The translations under genes were made by a program, and so were the position numbers. A model generated the notes under the pieces. The model searched no databases. It saw only the letters and a list, made by a program, of their open reading frames with translations, and was not told the DNA's origin. Below, piece after piece: positions 13,530 to 39,917 of a stretch of 64,000 nt of DNA; the first letter of the stretch is position 1, and each line of letters opens with the position of its first letter. The stretch is from Oscillospiraceae bacterium (lineage in GTDB: Bacteria > Bacillota > Clostridia > Oscillospirales > Oscillospiraceae): contig SVLV01000002.1 of assembly GCA_015067765.1 (NCBI GenBank), positions 1-64,000 on the forward strand, written 5' to 3'.

Positions 13530-13699
13530 TGAAAAGACTGAGCAGGGAGGGAACTCTGGAGAATCCCATTAAATTGGGTGCCGAAGGTGCAAGATTGTGG
13601 AAGCAATCGAATCTCTCAGGCAAAAGGACGGAGAAAGCAGGAGTTTCCTGCAGTCTGTATTTTCCGGAGTTGCTGATTTCAGTGACTCTTATTTTTTTC
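13530..13699 (+). ncRNA. Glycine riboswitch with a terminator platform
   Basis: The core shows glycine-aptamer consensus elements: GGAGAATCCC, GCCGAAGGTGCAA and CTCTCAGGCAAAAGGAC. Only one full aptamer is seen. A closing helix (13536-13546 with 13647-13655) encloses it, the arrangement expected of a singleton aptamer with a reduced second domain. It is followed by an intrinsic terminator (13667-13688, 10-bp stem with two G-T pairs, TT loop, then TTATTTTTTT). Placement ahead of a Na+/alanine-glycine symporter is a classic context. An ON switch, where glycine prevents termination, is likely but the antiterminator helix was not resolved. Confidence 0.88.
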
Positions 13700-23876: not shown

Positions 23877-23899
23877 TCATAATGAAGTAAATAAGTGTT

Positions 23900-24170
23900 T
23901 CAGTGCCCCTGAAGCGTGGTAACAGCGCAGGGGGAGAATAGAGAATCGGGTGTGATTCCCGAACGGTACCGCCACTGTAAGCGTGGAGGTTCTGCATTCA
24001 GGCGAAAGCCGGTCATTGGAGGAAACTCTGAGAAGGCCATGCGGAACTGTTGAGGCGCAAGTCAGGAGAACTGCTGAAATCTGGGTCATCCGCAGACTGC
24101 CAGTACAGTGTGCGGGTTTGTTGCGGGAAATCGGCTGCAGCACCTTTTGGGTGCTGCAGTTTTTATTTGC
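23900..24170 (+). ncRNA. Cobalamin riboswitch with transcription terminator
   Basis: The core sequence GGTGTGATTCCCGAACGG leads to ACCGCCACTGT (conserved GCCACTG at 23971-23977). A B12 box (GCGCAAGTCAGGAGAACTGC, near 24054-24073) completes the cobalamin aptamer. A perfect 10-bp stem (ctgcagcacc / ggtgctgcag, 24135-24159) followed by TTTTTATTT forms the terminator platform just before the ecfT start. Cobalamin binding is expected to stop transcription of the ECF operon, the usual logic for B12 or cobalt import genes. Confidence 0.92.
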
Positions 24171-30451: not shown

Positions 30452-30772
30452 ATGGGTATTTTGGATTTTTTCCGCGGCCCGGATATCAATGAGGGCGTGA
30501 CGGAGTATGCGGCAACGCCCGGTGCGGTGCTTCTGGATGTCCGCACTGTGGCTGAGTATGAAAAAGGAGCGATTCCCGGTAGTCGAAATCTTCCGCTGGA
30601 TCGTCTTGGCAAGGTGGTAGAGGTAGTAAAGGATAGAGATACGCCTGTTTTTGTCTACTGTCTCAGCGGTGCCCGCAGCCAGCAGGCGACAGCCTATCTG
30701 GAAAGCTTGGGATATACCCGCGTGAAAAACATTGGCGGTATTTCCCGGTATCGCGGAAAGGTGGGAGAATAG
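30452..30772 (+). CDS. Single-domain rhodanese (sulfurtransferase)
   Basis: The 106-residue protein holds one rhodanese domain. The start of the domain (LLDVRTVAEYEKGAIPG) and the active-site loop YCLSGARS, with Cys near residue 71, are intact. Rhodaneses move sulfane sulfur between thiols as a Cys persulfide. It lies 16 nt after trxA and ends one nucleotide before the start of the flavoprotein gene, so the three are one transcription unit. Confidence 0.9.
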   Translation: MGILDFFRGPDINEGVTEYAATPGAVLLDVRTVAEYEKGAIPGSRNLPLDRLGKVVEVVKDRDTPVFVYCLSGARSQQATAYLESLGYTRVKNIGGISRYRGKVGE

Positions 30773-30773
30773 G

Positions 30774-32465
30774 ATGAAGGTAGTCATTGTTGGCGGCGTG
30801 GCCGGTGGTGCTACGGCGGCAGCCCGGATCCGCAGGTTGGATGAACAGGCAGAGATCGTGGTATTTGAGCGGTCCGGCTATATCTCCTATGCCAACTGCG
30901 GCTTGCCCTACTATATTGGCGGAGCGATCCAGAATCCGGCTGCCCTTACCTTGCAGACACCGGAGAGCTTCGATGCCCGTTTCCGCGTGGATATGCGGGT
31001 GCACCATGAGGTGACGGCGATCCATCCGGATCGGAAATGTGTCTCCGTGACCAATCTGGAGACTGGGGAACAGTGGGAGGAAAGCTACGATAAGCTGCTG
31101 CTGGCACCCGGCGCAAAGCCTGCCCAGCCGAAGGTGCCCGGTGTTGGATTGGCGCGTGTGTTTTCCCTGCGAACTGTGGAGGATACCTTCCGCATCAAGG
31201 AATATGTAGAAAGGAAACATCCCGCTTCGGTAGTGTTGGCCGGGGGTGGTTTTATCAGCCTGGAAATGGCGGAGAACCTGCGGAAGCTGGGGCTGGATGT
31301 GACCATTGTGCAGAGACCCAGACAGCTGATGAATCCTTTCGATGCTGATATGGCTGCGCTGATTCATGCTGAGGTGCGCCGTCATGGCGTGAAGCTGATG
31401 CTGGGACACACGGTGGAAGGTTTTGTGGAGCGGGATGATGGGATCGATGTGTTGTTGAAGGATGCGCCGCGGCTCCACACAGATATGGTGGTGCTGGCCA
31501 TTGGCGTTACCCCGGAAAGTGACCTGGCGAAATCAGCGGGATTGGCTCTGGGTGTGAAGGGGAGTATCGCAGTAAATGACCGGATGGAGACATCTGTCCC
31601 CGATATTTATGCCGTGGGTGATGCGGTGCAGGTGAAACACTTTGTATCCGGCACCGATGTGGTGATCCCGCTGGCCGGACCCGCCAATAAACAGGGGCGT
31701 ATTGCGGCGGATAATATCTGCGGCGGAAACAGCCGCTATCAGGGTAGCCAGGGCAGCTCGATACTGCAGGTGTTTTCTATGACGGCGGCCGCCACCGGAC
31801 TCAATGAGGCAGCTGCCAGACAGGCAGGACTCCAGGTGGACAAGGTGATCCTTTCCCCCATGAGCCACGCCGGCTACTATCCCGGCGGAAAGACGATGAC
31901 CATGAAGGTTGTATTCGAAAAGGAAACCTTCCGTCTTCTGGGTGCACAGATTGTCGGGTATGACGGTGTGGATAAGCGCATTGATGTGTTGGCCACGGCG
32001 ATCCGCTGCGGTATGTCCGCTGTGGCGCTGAAGGATCTGGATTTGGCCTATGCGCCGCCCTATTCCTCCGCCAAGGATCCGGTAAATATGGCCGGATTTA
32101 TGGTAGAGAACATTCAGCGAGGTGTGGTGAAACAGTGGTATCTGGAGGAAGCCGACACGCTGCCACAGGATGGCAGTGTAACCCTGTTGGATACCCGTAC
32201 GGAGGCGGAATATGCCATGGGGCATGTGGAAGGCTTTGTGAATATTCCCGTGGATGCACTGCGGGAGCGGCTGCAGGAGCTGGAGAGAGGGAAGCCGGTC
32301 TATGTGATTTGCCAAAGTGGTTTGCGCAGCTACATTGCAGCCCGGATCCTGATGGGCAATGGGTTTGACTGCTATAACTTTGCCGGAGGATTCCGATTCT
32401 ATGATGCGGTAAAGAATGAACAGAAACTGATTGAGCAGGCAACTGCCTGCGGAATGGACGCATAA
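30774..32465 (+). CDS. CoA-disulfide reductase-type FAD/NAD(P) oxidoreductase with C-terminal rhodanese domain
   Basis: The 563-residue protein starts with an FAD-binding loop (VVIVGGVAGGATAAARIRR). The single redox Cys follows in ISYANCGLPYYIGG near residue 43, as in CoA-disulfide and CoA-persulfide reductases. A second dinucleotide-binding fold lies near residue 155 (VVLAGGGFISLEMAENL) and the FAD-site motif IYAVGDAVQV near 280. A rhodanese domain ends the protein, with active Cys in VICQSGLRSY. Such fusions reduce CoA persulfides and polysulfides with NADH. Thioredoxin and a separate rhodanese in the same operon complete a sulfane-sulfur handling set. Confidence 0.9.
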   Translation: MKVVIVGGVAGGATAAARIRRLDEQAEIVVFERSGYISYANCGLPYYIGGAIQNPAALTLQTPESFDARFRVDMRVHHEVTAIHPDRKCVSVTNLETGEQWEESYDKLLLAPGAKPAQPKVPGVGLARVFSLRTVEDTFRIKEYVERKHPASVVLAGGGFISLEMAENLRKLGLDVTIVQRPRQLMNPFDADMAALIHAEVRRHGVKLMLGHTVEGFVERDDGIDVLLKDAPRLHTDMVVLAIGVTPESDLAKSAGLALGVKGSIAVNDRMETSVPDIYAVGDAVQVKHFVSGTDVVIPLAGPANKQGRIAADNICGGNSRYQGSQGSSILQVFSMTAAATGLNEAAARQAGLQVDKVILSPMSHAGYYPGGKTMTMKVVFEKETFRLLGAQIVGYDGVDKRIDVLATAIRCGMSAVALKDLDLAYAPPYSSAKDPVNMAGFMVENIQRGVVKQWYLEEADTLPQDGSVTLLDTRTEAEYAMGHVEGFVNIPVDALRERLQELERGKPVYVICQSGLRSYIAARILMGNGFDCYNFAGGFRFYDAVKNEQKLIEQATACGMDA

Positions 32466-32467
32466 GA

Positions 32468-32506
32468 GAAAGCCCATCGCACGGCATGTGCGATGGGCTT
32501 TTGTAT
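32468..32506. terminator. Bidirectional terminator, sulfur operon / Crp-Fnr gene
   Basis: A 13-bp stem (aagcccatcgcac / gtgcgatgggctt) with GGCAT loop between convergent genes. Confidence 0.88.
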
Positions 32507-33165
32507 TAAGTATCCTGCAGAGCATTCAGCTGATCCCGGTCGATCAGAATTACCCTTCCGCGGGAGAGTTTGACCATGCCTTCGTTCTGAAAATAGCGGA
32601 GCATCCGGGTAACCACCTCCCGGGGGCTGCCCAGGTGGTTTCCGATGGCCTCGTGGGTGATCTTCAGCTGGTCAGAATTCTCAATGACAGATTCCTCCAG
32701 AAGGAATTTAGCCAGCCGCTTATCGAAGCTTTTCCACATGACCTGCTCTATCAGCCACATAACATCCGAAAATCTACTGGCCATGACCTCGTTGGTGAAG
32801 TTGGCCAGAGGGGCGGACTCCTCCATGATCTGGCGGTAGGCATCCGGCAGGATCAGCAGGAAATCGGTGTCCTTCTCCGCCTCGATGGTGATCTCAAACT
32901 GAAGTGAGCGCATGATGCAGGAGGCGGAGAGTAGGCAAATATCCCGCTCAAAGAGTCGGTAGACGGTGATCTCGCGGCCCTCGGGGGAGAGGATATATGC
33001 CCGCAGCTGACCGGATTTGATCAGAATCAGACCGGTACATTCGGTGCTGCCACTGTATAAAATTGTGCCCTTGCTGGCGCTGCGGGCGGTGGTGTGCTGC
33101 CGAAGCAATTCCTGCTGGGGATGGCTCAGTTTATTCCATACGGGAAAAAAATTCTGAATCTCCAC
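32506..33165 (-). CDS. Crp/Fnr family transcriptional regulator
   Basis: The 219-residue protein has an N-terminal cyclic-nucleotide-binding-like beta roll (GTILYSGSTECTGLILIKSG) and a C-terminal winged helix-turn-helix (THEAIGNHLGSPREVVTRMLRYF). There is no N-terminal cluster of Fnr-type cysteines; one Cys pair region (CLLSASC) near residue 78 could sense redox. The start is a GTG with AGGAGG upstream. It is convergent with the trx-rhodanese-reductase operon and may regulate it, by analogy with other Crp/Fnr proteins beside sulfur genes; no binding site was identified. Confidence 0.85.
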   Translation of the reverse strand: MEIQNFFPVWNKLSHPQQELLRQHTTARSASKGTILYSGSTECTGLILIKSGQLRAYILSPEGREITVYRLFERDICLLSASCIMRSLQFEITIEAEKDTDFLLILPDAYRQIMEESAPLANFTNEVMASRFSDVMWLIEQVMWKSFDKRLAKFLLEESVIENSDQLKITHEAIGNHLGSPREVVTRMLRYFQNEGMVKLSRGRVILIDRDQLNALQDT

Positions 33166-33188
33166 GAAGTCACCTCCTTGTCTGCATC

Positions 33189-33217
33189 AGCATAGTACGA
33201 TTTACAGCATCTGTCAA
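33189..33217 (-). promoter_or_regulatory. Promoter of the Crp/Fnr gene
   Basis: Minus strand TTGACA, 17 bp, TATGCT. A GC-rich hairpin (gggcgc / gcgccc, 33239-33258) lies just upstream and would shield it from minus-strand readthrough. Confidence 0.75.
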
Positions 33218-33372
33218 CTGGGCAGCAGATAGAATAAAGGGCGCCTGTTCCAGCGCCCCAACAACATTATGATATCAAAATTTGTGTAATCTGTCAATGA
33301 AAATATAGAAAATGGAAATTAAATTGTAGAAACAAACAAAGTGATGAGAGAAAGTTTAGGGAGTATTCCATC

Positions 33373-33401
33373 TTGTAAGATGGAAGAAAAAGCGGTATGA
33401 T
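33373..33401 (+). promoter_or_regulatory. Promoter of ncRNA copy 1
   Basis: TTGTAA, 17 bp, TATGAT. The 21 bp from 33355 to 33375 match 19 of 21 positions ahead of copy 2, so the upstream control sequence is conserved with the RNA. Confidence 0.7.
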
Positions 33402-33407
33402 AAGACC

Positions 33408-33728
33408 AACAAAAGAAGAGGTGAGTCCGATGACCTACTAAGAAGATCTCCCTGAAAAGCGAGATCAAACACAGCTGGCTTTCTGGTAAAGCTCCCGATG
33501 ATATAGATTGAAGATTCAAGTAATGGGATATTAAAGAGATCAGGAGATTGAGTGGAGGCAGAAAGTTCAGGCAGTGCAGTCTGTAGAAAGAGAGGTTAAT
33601 CAAGGATGCTAGATATCAAGAATTTTGAGGAATGACCCCCGCTTTTCGGAGAACTGAAAGGCGAGGGGTCATTCCATGTTTGGGAAACCTATGACTTGTG
33701 CTCCGGCTGGGAGCGTTTTTGTTTTTTC
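33408..33728 (+). ncRNA. Structured non-coding RNA, tandem copy 1
   Basis: No open frame is present. From the predicted start, a 6-bp hairpin with loop CCTGAAAAGC lies at +37, a conserved GGCTTTCTGGTRAARCTCCC block follows, and a 45-nt block identical to copy 2 covers 33580-33624. Next comes a long hairpin (33629-33675) whose stem differs in sequence from copy 2 while still pairing. It ends in a real terminator (33700-33727, gctcc/ggagc then GTTTTTGTTTTTT). Size and layout recall large Firmicutes RNAs such as the raiA motif or the Clostridiales-1 class; I cannot confirm which without a covariance search. Confidence 0.8.
33700..33727 (+). terminator. Terminator of ncRNA copy 1
   Basis: A short GC stem (gctcc / ggagc, 5-nt loop) followed by GTTTTTGTTTTTT. 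Confidence 0.75.
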
Positions 33729-33888
33729 GTTATTTTTGGGGTAAAAGAGAATTGGAGCATTCCAAAGAAAGCCCCAACATCTTAATGTTAACACAACAAA
33801 AACTGCACGTCAATGAAAGTTTGGATGGTGAAAACAATTTCTGCGGTTTGCACTATTTTTCGAAAGGAATTTTAGGAAGTATTCCGTC

Positions 33889-33917
33889 TTGCCAAATGAA
33901 GTGAAATAAGCTATCAT
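33889..33917 (+). promoter_or_regulatory. Promoter of ncRNA copy 2
   Basis: TTGCCA, 17 bp, TATCAT, with the same upstream 21-bp sequence (33871-33891) as copy 1. Confidence 0.7.
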
Positions 33918-33923
33918 GAAGGC

Positions 33924-34219
33924 AGAAAGAAGGAGGTGTGAACCCAGTGAACAGATAAGGATCTCCCTGAAAAGCGAGATGAAAGAAACGACGGGCTTTC
34001 TGGTGAAACTCCCGATGACATAAATCGTGGGAATCCAAGTGAGAAGTTAGTGAGAATTGGAAGCAAGAAGCAAGTCGACTTTGGCAAATCTGTAGAAAGA
34101 GAGGTTAATCAAGGATGCTAGATATCAAGAATTATGAGGGATAACCCCTGACTCGTGAACGGGAGTCAGGGGTTATTCCATTGAATGAGATGTTTTCTCG
34201 CCCCTAGGGGCGTTTTTTG
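33924..34219 (+). ncRNA. Structured non-coding RNA, tandem copy 2
   Basis: This is a diverged duplicate of copy 1. The CCTGAAAAGC-loop hairpin starts at +36, GGCTTTCTGGTGAAACTCCC follows, and the identical 45-nt block covers 34089-34133. The 3' hairpin (34139-34179) uses the stem ataacccctgactc / gagtcaggggttat, different from copy 1 but fully paired, which is compensatory change. Peripheral segments between the conserved blocks have drifted freely. A separate terminator follows at 34199. The 147 nt or so between the copies hold only a two-tier hairpin (33735-33775) and AT-rich sequence. Confidence 0.8.
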
Positions 34220-34220
34220 T
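34199..34220 (+). terminator. Terminator of ncRNA copy 2
   Basis: Stem cgcccc / ggggcg with a TA loop and TTTTTT tail. Its end abuts the -35 box of the next gene. Confidence 0.85.
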
Positions 34221-34248
34221 TGCCCGAATGTTGGGTATATGCTATGAT
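34220..34248 (+). promoter_or_regulatory. Promoter of the DUF5714 gene
   Basis: TTGCCC, 17 bp, TATGAT, beginning directly at the end of the ncRNA terminator. Confidence 0.65.
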
Positions 34249-34275
34249 GAACCCATAACAGACAAGGAGGCAGCC

Positions 34276-34962
34276 ATGAAAGAGGAATGCTTGCTGTGCG
34301 GAGCTCCGCTGGAGTATTTGGAGCAGGGAACGGAGATGGAATGTGCCATGTGCCACAAGAAGGAAATCTCCCGTGCTCGTTGTATGAAGGGACACTATGT
34401 GTGTGACAGCTGCCATACCGCTGGTGTGGACAGTATTGTGGGAATCTGCCTGCAGGAACAGAGGAAGAATCCCTATACGATCCTCTCCCGCCTGATGGAT
34501 CTTCCTTTTTGTCATATGCACGGCCCGGAACATCATATCATGGTGGGATCCAGCCTGCTGACTGCCTACCATAATGCAGGAGGAAAGCTGGATCTGGAAA
34601 AAGCCCTGTACGAGATGCAGGAGCGCGGCAGACAGGTGCCGGGCGGCATCTGCGGTTTTTGGGGCAGCTGCGGAGCGGCGATCAGCAGCGGCATTTTTCT
34701 GTCCATTGTGCTGGGGGCAACTCCCTTGTCCGGCAGGGAGTGGGGACTTTGTAATCAGCTGACCTCTGCGGTGCTGGCAGATATTGGTGCAGTGGGAGGT
34801 CCTCGCTGCTGCAAGCGCAACAGCTATCTCTCTCTGAAACGGGCGGTACCTTTTGTGAAAGAGCATTTGGGTGTGGAGATGGAGCTCTCGGAGATTCGCT
34901 GCAGACACAGGGGACAGAATGCTCAGTGCATTGGCACCCGGTGTCCGTTTTTCCCAAAATAG
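34276..34962 (+). CDS. Cysteine-rich DUF5714-type protein
   Basis: The 228-residue protein starts with two zinc-ribbon-like Cys pairs (CLLCGAPL and CAMCHKK) followed by CDSCH. The middle part has a Gly-rich stretch (GGICGFWGSCGAAISSGIFLS), and the C-terminal part has paired Cys (PRCCKRNSY and CIGTRCPF). About 18 Cys in 228 residues suggest metal or Fe-S binding. I recall this pattern as DUF5714, with no known role. AAGGAGG precedes the ATG at 34276. It lies between the ncRNA pair and the selenium cluster and has its own promoter and terminator. Confidence 0.72.
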   Translation: MKEECLLCGAPLEYLEQGTEMECAMCHKKEISRARCMKGHYVCDSCHTAGVDSIVGICLQEQRKNPYTILSRLMDLPFCHMHGPEHHIMVGSSLLTAYHNAGGKLDLEKALYEMQERGRQVPGGICGFWGSCGAAISSGIFLSIVLGATPLSGREWGLCNQLTSAVLADIGAVGGPRCCKRNSYLSLKRAVPFVKEHLGVEMELSEIRCRHRGQNAQCIGTRCPFFPK

Positions 34963-34968
34963 GAGTGA

Positions 34969-35009
34969 AAAAAGAACCGTTGGAGGAACTTCCTCCAACG
35001 GTTCTTTTG
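34969..35009. terminator. Bidirectional terminator, DUF5714 / LysR
   Basis: A near-perfect 18-bp stem (aaaagaaccgttggagga with its complement) with a very small loop, T-rich on both sides. Confidence 0.92.
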
Positions 35010-35018
35010 ATAAACAAA

Positions 35019-35927
35019 TCAATTGGTCAAAGTGTGGCGGTAAGTCTGCGTGACGGCATCAATAAACTGCAGGACATGGGATTTGAGAATGTCCTTCTTG
35101 CGATAAACCAGACAAAGATTGCGCTGGGCAGAGGCCTCGGGCAGATCAAAGACCAGCAGCTTCCCCTCATCCCGGTAATCCTGTACCGCTTTTTCGGAGA
35201 TGAACGCGATACCCAGGCCACCGGAGACCAGATTCTTGATGGACTCCTGATCATTAAGCCGGGCGATGATCTGCAGCTGCGAATCGGAGATATTCACCTG
35301 CTCAAAATAGGTATTGATCCGGTGCTGGCTGCCGCTGCCCACCTCGCGCAGCAGGACGGGGTGTTGGAAGAAGATCTCCTTGCTGCAGGCGCCATCGTTC
35401 TGCATCTGCAGGAACGGCTCGGTGGGGGGAGTGATGAGCACCATGCGGTCCCGGTAGAAGGGCTGGCAGACGATGGCCTCATGCTGGATTTCCATGCCCA
35501 CCAGACCAATCGTAAAGTCACAGTTGAGCAATCCATTGATGATATCCTCACTATCACCCTGTCGGATGGAGAATTGAACATCCGGATGGTTGCGGCGGAA
35601 CTGGGGCAGAACTTCCGGCAGAATATAGGCAGAGGGGATGGTGGAGGTGCCCACGTAGATGATCTTCCGATCCTCTTCCTCCCAATTGGTAATCAGATTA
35701 TCCCGCTGCTTGAGGATGTTGCAGGCGCACTCATACAGTTCACGGCCCTTGGGCGTTACCTCGATGCTCTTGGTGGAGCGGATGATCAGCTGGGTATGCA
35801 GCTCCTCCTCCAGCAGACGGATGTGGGTGCTGATGGTGGGCTGGGACAGATAGAGTTTTTCAGCAGCTTTCGTGAAGCTGTCGTAATGCACCACAGCGAC
35901 AAAAGATTGCAGTTGCTTGAATTCCAT
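35019..35927 (-). CDS. LysR family regulator, selenium-metabolism type
   Basis: The 302-residue protein has the LysR winged helix (FVAVVHYDSFTKAAEKLYLSQ) and a periplasmic-binding-like effector domain. It is the second gene after a cysteine desulfurase, 5 nt apart, in an operon divergent from yedE-yedF-DUF3343-selD. A LysR regulator in that place is the pattern of the selenium-metabolism-associated LysR group. The ATG at 35927 has GAGGAG 10 nt upstream. It probably senses a selenium or sulfur compound and controls both arms; a candidate operator lies between the promoters at 37162-37184. Confidence 0.88.
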   Translation of the reverse strand: MEFKQLQSFVAVVHYDSFTKAAEKLYLSQPTISTHIRLLEEELHTQLIIRSTKSIEVTPKGRELYECACNILKQRDNLITNWEEEDRKIIYVGTSTIPSAYILPEVLPQFRRNHPDVQFSIRQGDSEDIINGLLNCDFTIGLVGMEIQHEAIVCQPFYRDRMVLITPPTEPFLQMQNDGACSKEIFFQHPVLLREVGSGSQHRINTYFEQVNISDSQLQIIARLNDQESIKNLVSGGLGIAFISEKAVQDYRDEGKLLVFDLPEASAQRNLCLVYRKKDILKSHVLQFIDAVTQTYRHTLTN

Positions 35928-35932
35928 GTGAA

Positions 35933-37102
35933 TCACACTCCTCGGGTCAGGCGGATCAGTGCTTGGACAGCAGTATCGATCTCTTCGGGAGTATTATTCC
36001 ACCCAAAGGAGAAACGGACCGTGCCGGTGGGATACGTATTCAGTGTTTTATGGGCAGAGGGAGCGCAGTGCAGACCGACACGGGTCTGAATCCCATACTC
36101 GGCGTCCAAACGGTGGGCCAGATCAGCCTGATCCTGCTGCACAGCCTGCAGAGAAACCACGCCGGTGCGCTGCTGGGTATCCATGCGGCCGATCAGGCGA
36201 ATGTACTGCTCTTGAGGGTCGAATTCCCTGATTTGCTGGATGAACCGCTCGGTAAGAGCCAGCTCATGATTGCGGATCTGATCGATGCCCTTTTCCTGCA
36301 GCCAGTTGAGGCTTGCGTGCAGTCCCACAATTCCGGGCAGGTTCATCGTGCCGCATTCAAAGCGGTCGGGCATAAAGGAGGGGATGTCTTCCGTATGGCT
36401 GAGGCTGCCGGTGCCGCCGGAGAGCAGAGGTTCGATCTGGGCGATCATCTCCTCCTGCAGCAGGAAACCGCCGGTTCCCTGAGGTCCCAACAGACCCTTG
36501 TGACCGGTAAAGGCCAGTGCATCAATGTGCATGGCCACCATATCGACAGGCCATACACCGGCGGTCTGTGCGGAGTCCACAAAGAACTTCAAGCCGTGCT
36601 CTGCGCAGAACTGACCGACCTGCTCCAGAGGCAGCATGGTGCCGCACACATTGCTGCCGTGGGTCATGACCACCATACGGGTATTGGACTGCAGGCAGTT
36701 TTTCAGTTCCTCCACGATCAGCGTGCCATCCTGTCGGCAGGGGACACGGGTGAAGGAGATCACACCGGCCTTTTCCAGCTGGACCAGAGGGCGCATAACA
36801 GCATTGTGCTCCATGGAGGAGACCAGAACATGGTCGCCGGGTTTCAGGAAACCCTTGAGCAGAATGTTGAGGCTTTCTGTTATATTCTTGGTGAACACAA
36901 CATTTTTGCAGTCCGGACCATGGAAGAGATCCGTCAGGGCCTGACGGGTATCAAAAATCAGATCCTCCACGGTATAGGCACCGGCATAGCAACCACGATT
37001 GATGTTGCTGCCGATCTCGGTCATGTAATGATAGACGGCCTTTGCAACAGGTTCCGGTTTGGGGAAGGTGGTACTGGCGTTGTCCAGATAAATATTTTTC
37101 AT
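35933..37102 (-). CDS. Cysteine desulfurase family protein (selenocysteine-lyase/SufS-like)
   Basis: The 389-residue protein is a class V aminotransferase-fold enzyme. It begins with YLDNASTTFPKP, holds the PLP lysine in FTGHKGLLGPQGTGG near residue 200, and has the catalytic Cys in HCAPSAHKT followed by TVRFSFGW. Such enzymes release sulfur or selenium from cysteine or selenocysteine as a persulfide or perselenide. Its position in a selenium cluster, next to a TusA-like carrier and SelD, suggests that it supplies selenium to SelD. The ATG at 37102 fits the family N terminus. Confidence 0.9.
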   Translation of the reverse strand: MKNIYLDNASTTFPKPEPVAKAVYHYMTEIGSNINRGCYAGAYTVEDLIFDTRQALTDLFHGPDCKNVVFTKNITESLNILLKGFLKPGDHVLVSSMEHNAVMRPLVQLEKAGVISFTRVPCRQDGTLIVEELKNCLQSNTRMVVMTHGSNVCGTMLPLEQVGQFCAEHGLKFFVDSAQTAGVWPVDMVAMHIDALAFTGHKGLLGPQGTGGFLLQEEMIAQIEPLLSGGTGSLSHTEDIPSFMPDRFECGTMNLPGIVGLHASLNWLQEKGIDQIRNHELALTERFIQQIREFDPQEQYIRLIGRMDTQQRTGVVSLQAVQQDQADLAHRLDAEYGIQTRVGLHCAPSAHKTLNTYPTGTVRFSFGWNNTPEEIDTAVQALIRLTRGV

Positions 37103-37132
37103 ACAATGTGCCCCCAATAGTCATTTTTCGAT

Positions 37133-37161
37133 AGTATACCACATAAATATTATTATTTCAA
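37133..37161 (-). promoter_or_regulatory. Promoter of the cysteine desulfurase-LysR operon
   Basis: Minus strand TTGAAA, 17 bp, TATACT. Confidence 0.75.
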
Positions 37162-37184
37162 ATCAATTTATTTGTTTAATTGAT
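37162..37184. promoter_or_regulatory. Candidate LysR operator between the two selenium promoters
   Basis: An inverted repeat, ATCAATT, 9 nt, AATTGAT, fills the space between the divergent -35 boxes. Divergent LysR-controlled promoters normally share such a site, so this is the best operator candidate; it is inference from position. Confidence 0.45.
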
Positions 37185-37192
37185 ACTTTTTA

Positions 37193-37221
37193 TTGGACAA
37201 TTTGATGGACAAGTCTATAAT
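37193..37221 (+). promoter_or_regulatory. Promoter of yedE-yedF-DUF3343-selD
   Basis: TTGGAC, 17 bp, perfect TATAAT. Confidence 0.78.
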
Positions 37222-37253
37222 TTAAAGTATACTTAACAAAGGAGAGTGTTATC

Positions 37254-38339
37254 ATGACACAAAAGAGAGAAAAGTCACTGATCGTGGTGGCTGGCATCAT
37301 CATTGGTATCATTGCTGCCATGCTGGTGGTGTTCGGCAACCCCAAGAACATGGGCTTCTGCATCGCTTGCTTCCTGCGTGATATGTCTGGCGCAGTTGGC
37401 CTGCATGGTGCCGGCGCTGTTCAGTACATCCGTCCCGAGATCATCGGCCTGGTCCTGGGTAGCTTCCTGATGGCCATGGGCAAGAAGGAGTTCTCCGCTA
37501 AGGGCGGCAGCGCTCCCATGACCCGCTTTGTTCTGGCATTCTTCGTGATGATCGGCTGCCTGATGTTCCTGGGCTGCCCCTTCCGTATGATCCTGCGTCT
37601 GGCCGGCGGCGACCTGAATGCTATTCTGGGTCTGGTGGGTTTCGTTCTGGGTATCCTGGTGGGCGTGTTCTTCCTGAAGAAGGGCTACACCCTGAAGCGT
37701 ACCTACAAGCTGCCCGCCGTTGAGGGTACCTGGCTGCCCATCATCATGGTGGTTCTGCTGGTCCTGCTGGTTGTTGCTCCTGCATTCATCAAGTTCTCCG
37801 AGGCTGGTGCCGGCCCCGGCGCTCTGCACGCTTCCATTATCATCAGCCTGGTTGCCGGTCTGGTCGTTGGTGCTCTGGCTCAGCGTACCCGTCTGTGCAT
37901 GGTTGGCGGTATCCGTGACCTGGTCCTGTTCAAGGAGACCAAGCTGCTGCTGGGCTTCGTTGCCATTCTGGTCAGCGCTCTGGTCTGCAACCTGATCCTC
38001 AATGCCACTCAGGGTGGCTTCTTCAAGCTGGGCTTTGCTGAGCAGGCTGTTGCTCATGTGGATGGCCTGTGGAACCTGCTGGGCATGCTGCTGGTTGGCT
38101 TCGGCTGCGTCCTGCTGGGCGGCTGCCCCCTGCGTCAGCTGATCCTGGCCGGCGAAGGCAATGGCGACAGCGCTATCACCGTGGTTGGCCTGATGGTCGG
38201 TGCTGCTTTTGCTCACAACTTCGGCCTGGCTTCCAGCGGCGCTGGTCCTACCGCTAATGGTAAGATCGCCGTCATCATCGGTATCGTTGTGGTGGCCATC
38301 ATCGGCTGCGTCAACACCTTCGGCAAGAAGAAAGCATAA
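37254..38339 (+). CDS. yedE: YedE family putative selenium transporter
   Basis: The 361-residue membrane protein has about ten hydrophobic segments in two halves. Each half carries the Cys-containing motif of the YeeE/YedE (thiosulfate or selenium permease) family: FLGCPFRMILRLAGGD near residue 105 and LLGGCPLRQLILAGEGN near residue 285. FCIACFLRD is at the N-terminal side. Co-localisation with yedF and selD is the known hallmark of the selenium-associated branch. Codon use is extremely biased to CTG and GGC, suggesting high expression. An AAAGGAG site precedes the ATG. Confidence 0.9.
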   Translation: MTQKREKSLIVVAGIIIGIIAAMLVVFGNPKNMGFCIACFLRDMSGAVGLHGAGAVQYIRPEIIGLVLGSFLMAMGKKEFSAKGGSAPMTRFVLAFFVMIGCLMFLGCPFRMILRLAGGDLNAILGLVGFVLGILVGVFFLKKGYTLKRTYKLPAVEGTWLPIIMVVLLVLLVVAPAFIKFSEAGAGPGALHASIIISLVAGLVVGALAQRTRLCMVGGIRDLVLFKETKLLLGFVAILVSALVCNLILNATQGGFFKLGFAEQAVAHVDGLWNLLGMLLVGFGCVLLGGCPLRQLILAGEGNGDSAITVVGLMVGAAFAHNFGLASSGAGPTANGKIAVIIGIVVVAIIGCVNTFGKKKA

Positions 38340-38353
38340 GGAGGAACGGAAAC

Positions 38354-38560
38354 ATGAAAGTGATCGATGCAAGAGGTCTGTCCTGCCCCGAACCCGTTGT
38401 TCTGACCAGCCAGGCTATGGCCAGCAAGGAAGACGCTTATCAGGTCCTGGTGGATAACAATGCCTCCAAGGAGAATGTGACCCGTTATGCTGAGCATCAG
38501 GGTTACAAGGTCGCTATCAGCGAGGCTGACGGCGAGTACACTCTGGATATCACCAAGTAA
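38354..38560 (+). CDS. yedF: TusA/YedF-like sulfur or selenium carrier
   Basis: The 68-residue protein is a minimal TusA fold with the signature ARGLSCPEPVV, where Cys11 is the persulfide/perselenide-carrying residue. It lacks the second domain found in some two-domain YedF proteins. It lies 14 nt after yedE with its own GGAGG site. In this context it probably hands selenium from the desulfurase to SelD. Confidence 0.88.
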   Translation: MKVIDARGLSCPEPVVLTSQAMASKEDAYQVLVDNNASKENVTRYAEHQGYKVAISEADGEYTLDITK

Positions 38561-38575
38561 AGAGAGAATTTTGCT

Positions 38576-38824
38576 ATGACCTTCGTTGCAACCTTTTATT
38601 CCCATTTCGGTGCCATTCGCTATAAAAAGATGTGCCAAAAGGCGGGTGTTCAGGCAGAGACCATGCCGGTACCCCGCGATCTGAGCAGCAGCTGCGGAAC
38701 CTGTGTCCGCGGTGTTGGCGAACCCGTTATGCCGGACGGTGTGGCGAAGGAGGAGATGGAGCAGTTGGTGGAGGCCCTGGAACAGGGTGGCTACCGGCTG
38801 ATCTATCGGGCGGAAGAAAGTTGA
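38576..38824 (+). CDS. DUF3343 domain protein (putative selenium/sulfur carrier)
   Basis: The 82-residue protein has the DUF3343 pattern: FYSHFGAIRYKKMCQKAG and a PVPRDLSSSCGTCVR motif with two close cysteines that could carry sulfur or selenium. The family recurs beside SelD and YedF and in selenium-using anaerobes. It ends in TGA; a hairpin follows that is not a convincing SECIS element, so I treat TGA as the stop. Confidence 0.82.
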   Translation: MTFVATFYSHFGAIRYKKMCQKAGVQAETMPVPRDLSSSCGTCVRGVGEPVMPDGVAKEEMEQLVEALEQGGYRLIYRAEES

Positions 38825-38837
38825 TTATCATTGCTGA

Positions 38838-38859
38838 GGGACCGGTGTAAACCGGTCCC
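38838..38859 (+). promoter_or_regulatory. GTAA-capped hairpin between DUF3343 and selD
   Basis: A 9-bp perfect stem (gggaccggt / accggtccc) with loop GTAA, a GNRA-type tetraloop, followed by CTTGG rather than a T-run. It could stabilise the upstream mRNA or tune selD expression. Confidence 0.6.
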
Positions 38860-38879
38860 CTTGGCGCAAGGAGGAACTC

Positions 38880-39917
38880 ATGGAAACTGAAGTCAAACTG
38901 ACAAAACTGGCCAGTTGTGCAGGTTGCGGTGCCAAAGTGGGCGCAGGAACTCTGGTGAAACTGCTGGAAGGATTCAAGAGCCACACGGATCCCCGTCTGA
39001 TCGTGGGCTTTGACAAGAGCGATGATGCCAGCGTCTATCTGCTGGATGACAATACCGCTCTGGTGCAGACCACGGACTTTTTCCCGCCCATCGTGGATGA
39101 CCCCTATCTGTTTGGTCAGATCGCAGCAACCAATGCCATCAGCGATGTGTATGCTATGGGCGGTGAGCCCAAGCTGGCCCTGAACCTGATGTGCGTGTCC
39201 GATCAGATGGACAAGAAGACCGTGCAGGAAATTCTGCGTGGCGGTTATGACAAGGCCTATGAGGCCGGCGTAATCATTACCGGCGGTCACACCATCAATG
39301 GTGCTGAGCCCATCTACGGTCTGGCAGTGTCCGGTTTTGTGCATCCCCAGAAGGTGCTGACCAACAGCGGCGCCCGTCCCGGCGATGTGCTGATCCTCAC
39401 CAAGCCTCTGGGTGTCGGCGTGCTGACTACCTCTGCCAAGGCAGGTATGGTGGATAAGTCTGTGATGGATCGTATCTATGCACAGATGGCCACCCTGAAT
39501 AAGACTGCCCGTGATATTATGGTGGAGTACGATGTGCACAGCTGCACGGATGTGACCGGCTTTGCTCTGCTGGGCCACTCCTTCGAGATGGCACAGGGCA
39601 GCAATTGCACCATTCACATTGAGGTGGAGAAGATCCCCTATCACAAGGAGGCCTACGAACTGTCCGAGATGGGCTTCATCCCCGCCGGTGCTTACCGCAA
39701 CCGCGAGTATGCCCAGGCCGGTGTTACCGTGAAGGGTGATATCCCCCGCGCTATGCAGGATCTGCTGTATGATCCCCAGACCAGTGGTGGCTTGCTGATC
39801 GCTCTGCCCGCTGAGCAGGCGGAGGAGTGCCTGGCCCGTATGCAGGAGAAGATCCCGCAGGCCAGAATCATCGGCTATGTCACTGAGCCCGTGGATAACT
39901 GGATCTGCCTGGAGTAA
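38880..39917 (+). CDS. selD: Selenide, water dikinase (cysteine form)
   Basis: The 345-residue protein makes selenophosphate from selenide and ATP. The Gly-rich N-terminal site reads LASCAGCGAKVGAG, with Cys16 as the catalytic residue (Sec in some homologues) and Lys19 as partner. QTTDFFPPIVDDP and GGHTINGAEPIYG bind nucleotide and magnesium, and LYDPQTSGGLL is the C-terminal signature. The enzyme serves selenocysteine and selenouridine synthesis and selenium cofactor insertion. No selA, selB, selU or tRNA-Sec is in the window, so the downstream use cannot be decided. Good GGAGG site. Confidence 0.96.
   Translation: METEVKLTKLASCAGCGAKVGAGTLVKLLEGFKSHTDPRLIVGFDKSDDASVYLLDDNTALVQTTDFFPPIVDDPYLFGQIAATNAISDVYAMGGEPKLALNLMCVSDQMDKKTVQEILRGGYDKAYEAGVIITGGHTINGAEPIYGLAVSGFVHPQKVLTNSGARPGDVLILTKPLGVGVLTTSAKAGMVDKSVMDRIYAQMATLNKTARDIMVEYDVHSCTDVTGFALLGHSFEMAQGSNCTIHIEVEKIPYHKEAYELSEMGFIPAGAYRNREYAQAGVTVKGDIPRAMQDLLYDPQTSGGLLIALPAEQAEECLARMQEKIPQARIIGYVTEPVDNWICLE

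Follow-up and report, generated by a model that had tools for sequence, protein, structure and literature searches.

The two supposed non-coding RNAs considered here are probably, to judge from their sequence, very small messengers. They lie in tandem at positions 33355..34220 of the stretch analysed, a window of 64 000 nt from an Oscillospiraceae bacterium (GenBank assembly GCA_015067765.1, contig SVLV01000002.1, positions 1 to 64 000 of the forward strand). A first-pass annotation had described them as structured RNAs of about 300 nt with independent promoters and terminators, neither containing a plausible frame. This last statement was wrong: a block of sequence identical in both copies holds a Shine–Dalgarno sequence and a nine-codon nano-ORF (open reading frame; ORF2), and a second minimal ORF (ORF1) lies 5′ of it (Table 1). 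We give an even chance to the reading that each copy is a free-standing micro-mRNA gene with two tiny translated ORFs, the product being a peptide of 8–10 residues.

ORF2 and the 3′ hairpin

The 45 nt identical block reported for the two copies was confirmed (33580–33624 and 34089–34133) and forms part of a 60 nt repeat with 95 % identity. It is, as we read it, the ribosome-binding site and first codons of ORF2, which in copy 1 consists of AGAAAGAGAGG and then ATG CTA GAT ATC AAG AAT TTT GAG GAA TGA, whilst copy 2 differs at the end (...TAT GAG GGA TAA). In 184 of 191 distinct elements a stop codon (TGA 102, TAA 67, TAG 15) followed nine (170) or eight (14) sense codons, directly 5′ of the hairpin core, and the codon after the stop was CCC in 164, GCC in 13 and another in seven. 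The peptides followed the patterns MLD[ITN]K... or MIEP..., with the general form M-[L/I/V]-[D/E]-.... Codon 5, the third base of which was unfixed by the search, was Lys in all 170 nine-codon elements (AAG in 158, AAA in 12). One whole codon fewer was found in the 14 shorter elements, compared with a 1 nt shift in just two, the tandem copies of L066, which are both 1 nt short. The other non-conforming elements were L105 (CAA), L200 (TGG) and L210 (TGT), together with L125 and L179, which matched by chance within ordinary ORFs; these two were counted in the 191 and in the 177-case orientation count given below, and were excluded afterwards.

The ORF2 stop codon sits in the 5′ arm of the 3′ hairpin. 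The compensatory change in this hairpin that had been noticed between the two window copies was upheld in an alignment of 35 homologues picked for a good stem (score ≥32, passed by 166 of 185 elements): 17 of 18 pairs varied on both sides, 97.9 % of cells were paired, and covariation was seen in 115 cells, compared with a shuffled mean of 23.6 (none of 500 shuffles was as high). Among 180 unselected elements the core positions paired in 94–100 %, each hairpin being located by maximising pairing. TGG, which is equal to TGA and TAG in pairing, was seen once in 183 unique elements, compared with 8.9 expected from the column frequencies. Since this structurally equivalent triplet was rarer than expected, the stop codon is, on this count, selected over and above the hairpin stem.

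Of 28 weaker covariance-model hits, 27 kept an ORF of 8–10 codons with the same end point, starting with ATG, GTG or TTG; where several candidate frames existed, the one ending at the hairpin was chosen. The exception, L260, was one nucleotide short. Peptides from these hits included MIEPKHFEK, MLEPNYFAE, MIDPIVEK, MVLDFKSEQK, MEPTFEAE and MKLQIDSEQK; four of the 28 (L252, L254, L255 and L277) retained the common MLD[IT]K start, and an Asp or Glu codon was present at position 2–4 in 23 of 25 tabulated ORFs (GAT 10, GAA 10, GAG 3). Distant homologues were marked by Leu/Ile/Val and Asp/Glu swaps in ORF2 at lengths of 8–10 codons, and ORF2 is, as far as these comparisons indicate, conserved at the peptide level, beyond the nucleotide level. 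A ten-codon sub-type (L263–L265, L270 and L273; MRLDFKIEQK, MVLDFKSEQK, MKLQIDSEQK) and an eight-codon sub-type (L266, L268 and L271; MEPT[FY]EAE) were also observed, and may be lineage-specific peptide classes.

ORF1

The conserved 5′ block AGAAAGGGTGATACCAATG consists of a Shine–Dalgarno sequence and then a minimal ORF, examples being ATGTACAGGTAA, ATGTACTAA, ATGATTTAG, ATGTTCTGA and ATGTGGTAG. A start codon followed by a stop at codon three (27) or four (82) was present in 109 of 124 distinct 5′ blocks, representing 45 distinct sequences, compared with such an early stop after 44 of 368 ATGs of the middle region. Two 5′ blocks are shared by two tandem elements each, giving 124 distinct blocks, and some counts use all 126; within this slightly larger set the stops were TAA in 96, TAG in nine and TGA in seven of 112, including one block in which the start reads AAG. 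The start codon lay 22–25 nt past the −10 box in 93 of 125 elements. A Shine–Dalgarno sequence and start codon, one to a few codons and a stop near the 5′ end of the RNA make up the layout of regulatory minigenes, and ORF1 has this layout.

A 5′ block was recognisable in 121 of the 174 elements with at least 600 nt of upstream sequence. In window copy 2 it escaped a pattern allowing ≤4 edits, the 5-edit match falling at another place, and ORF1 was read directly from the sequence. A search with one form of the 5′ block matched in seven of 200 genomes, and all seven places lay 50–280 nt upstream of a known ORF2 block, which indicates that ORF1 and ORF2 belong together.

Because the frame and stop of ORF2 are kept, its replacements are of the Leu/Ile/Val and Asp/Glu kind and a second minimal ORF lies 5′, translation appears to be under selection in addition to RNA structure. 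Of the original interpretation, tandem, structured and apparently independently transcribed RNAs under selection were supported. That the elements are ordinary structured non-coding RNAs with coincidental ORFs, as first proposed, would agree with their strong folding and covariation; stop-codon identity, in-frame codon loss, alternative starts, the Asp/Glu and Leu/Ile/Val replacements and the 109 minimal ORF1s all argue against it, and we regard it as quite improbable.

The duplicated unit and the structured middle

Weaker repeat matches of 77 and 73 % identity, at 33255/33771 and 33293/33809, share an offset of 516 bp and reach upstream of the transcribed parts. The duplicated unit is therefore about 516 bp long and includes the upstream promoter region, making it larger than had been described. 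Each copy has its own promoter and its own terminator-like site, as annotated, and since these were found at matching places, the predicted transcripts of about 300 nt starting near 33408 and 33924 are plausible. Both RNAs folded better than dinucleotide shuffles (z −4.4 for copy 1 and −3.6 for copy 2, with none of 200 shuffles as low in either case). In the genome of the window (G000, 79 % complete), the covariance-model hits were limited to these two copies.

Table 1. Predicted features of the tandem pair, in window coordinates
Feature	Positions	Strand	Remarks
Terminator hairpin of ultrashort divergent transcript, copy 1	33232..33259	−	
Divergent promoter, copy 1 (TTGACA-17-TATCAT, extended −10)	33269..33297	−	−35 to forward −35, 75 bp
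Forward promoter, copy 1 (TTGTAA-17-TATGAT)	33373..33401	+	Expected start ~33408
ORF1, copy 1: Shine–Dalgarno GAAGAGGTGA and minigene ATG-ACC-TAC-TAA (33430–33441)	33415..33441	+	
Structured middle, copy 1: hairpin GATCTC(CCTGAAAAGC)GAGATC (33445–33466), conserved box TCCCGATGATATAG	33442..33584	+	
ORF2, copy 1: Shine–Dalgarno AGAAAGAGAGG (33585–33595), nano-ORF MLDIKNFEE* (33606–33635)	33585..33635	+	
Covarying 3′ hairpin, copy 1	33627..33675	+	Overlaps ORF2 stop codon
Intrinsic terminator, copy 1	33698..33721	+	T run
Weak hairpin after divergent promoter, copy 2	33743..33765	−	Probable remnant terminator; by eye, unscored as terminator
Divergent promoter, copy 2 (TTGACG-17-TAACAT)	33785..33813	−	75 bp to forward −35
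Forward promoter, copy 2 (TTGCCA-17-TATCAT)	33889..33917	+	Expected start ~33924
ORF1, copy 2: Shine–Dalgarno AGGAGGTG and minigene GTG-AAC-AGA-TAA (33947–33958)	33931..33958	+	Read directly from sequence
Structured middle, copy 2: hairpin 33960–33980, box TCCCGATGACATAA	33959..34093	+	
ORF2, copy 2: Shine–Dalgarno AGAAAGAGAGG (34094–34104), nano-ORF MLDIKNYEG* (34115–34144)	34094..34144	+	
Covarying 3′ hairpin, copy 2	34138..34179	+	Overlaps ORF2 stop codon
Intrinsic terminator, copy 2	34199..34219	+	T run

The region between the two ORFs was variable. The GATCTCCCTGAAAAGCGAGAT hairpin (loop CCTGAAAAGC) noted earlier was present in both window copies, at 33445 and 33960. A small hairpin with an RCWU loop was common to 35 of 124 middles, compared with 3.0 in dinucleotide shuffles, and a YYCCGAY..ATA box, which both window copies carry, was found in 14 of 124 (0.37 expected). 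The middles had stronger folds than their mononucleotide shuffles (mean z −2.1, n=94). Most were unrelated in sequence, the largest similarity cluster comprising 10 of 124, and no consensus fold of the whole middle could be derived: three small alignments yielded none, four pairs and, with three sequences, a few helices. The distance between the start codons of ORF1 and ORF2 was 43–85 nt in 11 of 126 elements, 100–300 nt in 86 and at least 300 nt in 29. The minimal members L009 and L182, whose start codons are 45 and 43 nt apart, have practically no structured middle. The middle domain is real, yet dispensable in some members.

These properties bear on the chief rival explanation, that of a ribosome-gated regulatory RNA, in which the ORFs would be translated only as cis-acting devices for stability, folding or the 3′ end, the RNA domain, whether trans-acting or sensory, would be the output, and the peptide would be irrelevant. 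It is kept in play by the weak conservation of the peptide sequence, seen alongside a conserved start, stop and length; by the folding of the middles, their RCWU hairpin and their CCGAY..ATA box; and by the RNA-protecting minigenes already described (PMC8708949, in the part drawn on here). Against it, the domain has nearly vanished from 11 of 126 elements in which both ORFs are kept, and middles are unrelated in sequence between most elements. We consider this explanation unlikely, although it deserves more weight than any other alternative.

Promoter region and divergent transcript

Of the 125 homologues with a 5′ block, 122 had a forward sigma-A promoter with 17 bp spacing, and in 98 a divergent promoter (TTGACA/T, TATAAT-like) also scored well. 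The scores included a small bonus for 17 bp spacing and, on the divergent side, for a following TGTTGG. The gap between the two −35 boxes (n=98) was 73–76 bp in 70, 84–87 bp in 17, 63–65 bp in eight and 67 or 80 bp in three; it was exactly 75 bp in both window copies. The lesser peaks are displaced from the principal one by about a single turn of DNA, and 10.5 bp was the best of six periods, narrowly.

A terminator-like hairpin was found ≤60 nt after the divergent −10 box in 79 of 98 cases; mononucleotide shuffles averaged 5.6, and the next 60 nt gave four of 96. Because this hairpin trails the −10 box so closely, the divergent transcript is predicted to be ultrashort, with a median of about 30 nt to the stem end. 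In the window, copy 2 has a divergent terminator that appears degraded, unlike that of many homologues.

Two TTTTGYACAA-like sites lay between the promoters in 63 of 98 elements (≤3 mismatches each), compared with 3.6 % in mononucleotide shuffles, and in 43 of the 63 the pair was spaced 24 bp. An exact-pattern search for the pair matched in none of 150 genomes, which shows that the sites are degenerate. In contrast to many homologues, the two window copies preserve these operator-like sites only poorly, as judged partly by eye. VirR boxes are spaced about 21 bp apart; an identity as LytTR/VirR boxes was rejected in view of the 24 bp spacing, the poor conservation in the window copies and the lack of exact matches in the 150 genomes.

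A short divergent RNA opposite a longer mRNA with a tiny ORF recalls tisB/istR-like layouts, and the element could be imagined as a toxic minigene or type I toxin–antitoxin-like system, in which peptidyl-tRNA drop-off would waste ribosomes or tRNAs and the ultrashort RNA would act as antisense antitoxin. UAA-ended minigenes with a strong Shine–Dalgarno sequence are more toxic, according to the part of PMC8708949 used here, and TAA ended 96 of 112 ORF1s; tandem duplication and patchy distribution would also fit. A restricted antisense test looked positive, the cognate energy being −8.19 compared with −7.80 kcal/mol for non-cognate pairs, a value that no shuffle out of 30 reached. When the whole RNA was tested, there was no preference: the best hit of the 12 nt 5′ end of the divergent RNA fell in the ORF1 start zone in 10 of 90 cases, compared with 8.8 % expected and 50 of 450 for a shuffled query. 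The idea of antisense pairing between the divergent RNA and the ORF1 start was therefore dropped. The ORF2 peptides also look hydrophilic, unlike membrane toxins, and the viral, phage and plasmid collections searched gave no match, so that a toxin–antitoxin system appears improbable.

Distribution

Using a congeneric homologue as BLASTN query, the element was found in 31 of 150 genomes of the family and in 26 of 106 genera. A pattern for the 3′ block matched in 79 of 400 genomes of the family and in 34 of 394 of the order; its reversed form, used as a control, had no match among the genomes listed. The matches were inspected in part, and L179 (genome G089), the chance match mentioned above, is among them. 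The 3′-block covariance model gave 57 of 220 family genomes and 36 of 106 genera. In a scan of GTDB at least 117 stretches matched; among the 80 matches listed, the titles were mostly those of Oscillospiraceae, Ruminococcaceae and Clostridia metagenome-assembled genomes, and Faecousia, Lawsonibacter and a few entries labelled Lachnospiraceae or Ruminiclostridium also occurred. A class-wide search matched in eight of 291 genomes, namely that of the window and seven others whose matches were uninspected. No element was found in viral contigs (exact pattern, no matches), phage records or plasmids (BLASTN), and a mobile element or phage gene was accordingly rejected.

Two or more same-strand copies were present at 14 of 173 loci, mostly 440–900 bp apart. 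Genome G236 (L278 and L279) holds seven element copies with differing eight-codon peptides: MLDIKNYQ (twice), MLDIKNNR, MLDNKNSQ, MLDNKNHR, MLDNKKNQ and MLDIKSCE.

Genomic context

No constant neighbour gene was identified, the most frequent neighbour family occurring at no more than 11 of 173 loci. According to a first gene caller, the next downstream ORF shared the direction of the element in 87 of 177 cases and ran against it in 90; a caller based on codon usage, which left 50 of 189 undecided, gave 59 and 80 of 139. Both callers are crude and the counts noisy, each having chosen a reverse-strand ORF after the window pair and missed the DUF5714 gene there. This gene is present in eight of 32 genomes of the genus, and none of the other seven congeneric DUF5714 loci, of about 3.7 kb each, contained the element. 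With no co-directional excess and no constant neighbour family, the unit behaves as free-standing, rather than as a leader.

A leader or attenuator in which translation of ORF2 opens the 3′ hairpin and so governs a gene further on, which in the window would be either copy 2 or the gene for DUF5714, would make sense of a stop codon within the hairpin stem, and upstream ORFs (uORFs) with a hairpin-embedded stop have been described, as in the fthC motif (PMC11109978, as far as the part used here goes). The mixed orientation of the next gene and the DUF5714 homologues without the element led to the rejection of this role, which we hold to be highly improbable.

The pair is surrounded by a cluster of sulfur/selenium type (30452–39914) encoding a rhodanese, a Crp/Fnr-type regulator, DUF5714 and LysR proteins, a class-V aminotransferase (cysteine-desulfurase-like), Sulf_transp, TusA and an AIR-synthase-like (SelD-like) protein. 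Elsewhere in the window a Cobalamin riboswitch (23884–24092) and a glycine riboswitch (13546–13641) scored above the gathering score.

Proposed mechanism and its standing

In the mechanism that we propose, a sigma-A promoter would give an RNA of about 300 nt from each copy, on which a strong 5′ Shine–Dalgarno sequence would drive ORF1 (start, one or two codons, stop). A structured, fast-drifting RNA domain would follow, and a second strong Shine–Dalgarno sequence would then drive the 8–10 codons of ORF2, whose stop apparently forms part of the 3′ hairpin, within its 5′ arm. Conservation suggests that both ORFs are translated. Because both are so short, ribosomes might re-initiate on them without leaving, for which mccA provides a precedent in vitro. 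Cycling on ORF1 could hold a ribosome at the 5′ end, and so either shield the RNA from decay or prime ORF2; initiating ribosomes on hbs reportedly protect against RNase J. Cycling on ORF2 would let a single RNA give rise to many peptides, the message being closed by the hairpin immediately after the stop. The product that matters would be a small cytosolic peptide, the synthesis of which would be tuned by the RNA domain. The roles of ORF1 as ribosome cap or primer and of ORF2 as peptide source are suggested by the precedents in the parts of PMC6495379 and PMC8708949 drawn on here. The unit may be controlled via the region shared by the divergent promoters, whose spacings fall about one DNA turn apart, and the divergent side would yield only a very short, immediately terminated RNA of about 30 nt to the stem end.

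Several points weigh against translation into a functional peptide. The argument for translation comes from conservation, and conservation of ORF2 in the main set is partly ascertained, the elements having been gathered via the ATGYTAGATA block; free tests of ORF2 are those on the unconstrained positions, the stop and the weak covariance-model hits. ORF2 is broken in five real elements (L066 twice, L105, L200 and L210), and also in L260. ORF1 was unrecognised in 53 of 174 elements, being either common rather than universal or overlooked, as it was in window copy 2. Past the M-hydrophobic-acidic start the peptide is poorly conserved, which suits a cis-acting ORF equally well. The structure shared by the middles (35 of 124 compared with 3.0) suggests that the RNA itself also matters. 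Finally, all element counts are raw, kinship among elements being uncorrected, and near-identical elements from different collections were dropped only if identical over the stretch used.

The fullest form of the micro-mRNA reading is a new class of stand-alone nano-genes, belonging to Oscillospiraceae-type bacteria, in which ORF1 serves as a stabilising ribosome cap, ORF2, closed by the stop within the 3′ hairpin, mass-produces a short cytosolic peptide signal or regulator, units multiply in tandem and the divergent promoters are helically phased; we put this forward tentatively, as falling short of an even chance. The element may be one of the shortest kinds of conserved peptide gene and, if the reading is true, few conserved peptide genes known would be as short or as widespread. 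Such genes are missed by annotation pipelines and RNA scans alike, since the ORFs are much too short for gene callers and the RNA diverges too quickly to be followed by sequence searches. Should the nano-ORFs prove to be translated, a peptide system so far overlooked, in some cases present in several copies, would exist in a large group of bacteria of the gut and rumen. In addition, the family offers many natural variants for studying the behaviour of ribosomes on ORFs of 2 to 10 codons, and bears on minigene stabilisation of RNA in Firmicutes and on the fusion of a stop into a 3′ hairpin, whilst the one-turn changes in spacing of the divergent promoters constitute a natural test of communication between promoters or through a shared regulator.

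Comparison with known systems

The raiA motif and Clostridiales-1 RNAs, to which the pair had been likened, resemble it in length and in their occurrence in Firmicutes. An Rfam covariance scan of the pair gave no family at the gathering score, the whole window yielding only Cobalamin, Glycine and tRNA, and six sub-threshold matches at E≤10, the best being SSRC8_2 (E 0.13, 15.2 bits compared with a gathering score of 72). Neither raiA nor Clostridiales-1 was among the matches at either level, the presence of a Clostridiales-1 model being unchecked, and the likeness was not borne out.

Reiterative translation can occur on ORFs of 2–8 codons, and 71, 30 and 6 rounds were measured for mccA of 7, 11 and 15 codons, with a terminator shown 3′ of mccA (PMC6495379, in the part used here). 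The element has the same layout as mccA of microcin C, with a very short ORF of a length in or near the reiterative range, a strong Shine–Dalgarno sequence and a terminator-like hairpin directly behind the stop, and, unlike mccA, adds a 5′ minigene, an RNA domain and a divergent promoter. MccA precursors end in Asn and have mccB nearby, whereas Asn was last in eight of 184 elements and the neighbours are inconstant, although no search aimed at MccB itself was made. A precursor of the mccA microcin type was rejected because the C-terminal Asn is not conserved.

Minigenes of two to six codons with a Shine–Dalgarno sequence are proposed to guard the RNA against nucleases or to modulate the ORF that follows (PMC8708949, in the part used here). 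The leader minigenes of axe-txe (mg2), LEE1, LEE4 and ycbK described there share with ORF1 their own Shine–Dalgarno sequence and their position in the 5′ part of the RNA; they precede ordinary genes, whereas the next ORF in the element has just 8–10 codons and the unit stands alone. On acidic and proline drop-off motifs, nothing usable was found in PMC10192219. The fthC motif comprises regulatory uORFs with the stop codon inside a hairpin, and is alike in its short ORF, its Shine–Dalgarno-like region, a stop often in hairpin P2 and an adjoining terminator-like hairpin (PMC11109978, likewise in part). In fthC the stop hairpin and the terminator are separate and a constant main gene follows, whereas the element has one hairpin and no constant gene.

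A search of the open-licence PMC literature, with subscription journals and preprints outside its scope, found no paper recognisable as describing the element. Also close in kind are the coding small RNAs RNAIII/hld and SR1/SR1P, which are likewise structured RNAs of a few hundred nucleotides with a small ORF. RNAIII has divergent promoters too. The ORFs of dual-function RNAs of the RNAIII/hld type are tens of codons long, and we know of no minigene of 2–3 codons, and of no stop fused into a covarying 3′ hairpin, in RNAs of the RNAIII/hld or SR1 type. We regard the element as a further form of coding small RNA, and it could well represent a new class.

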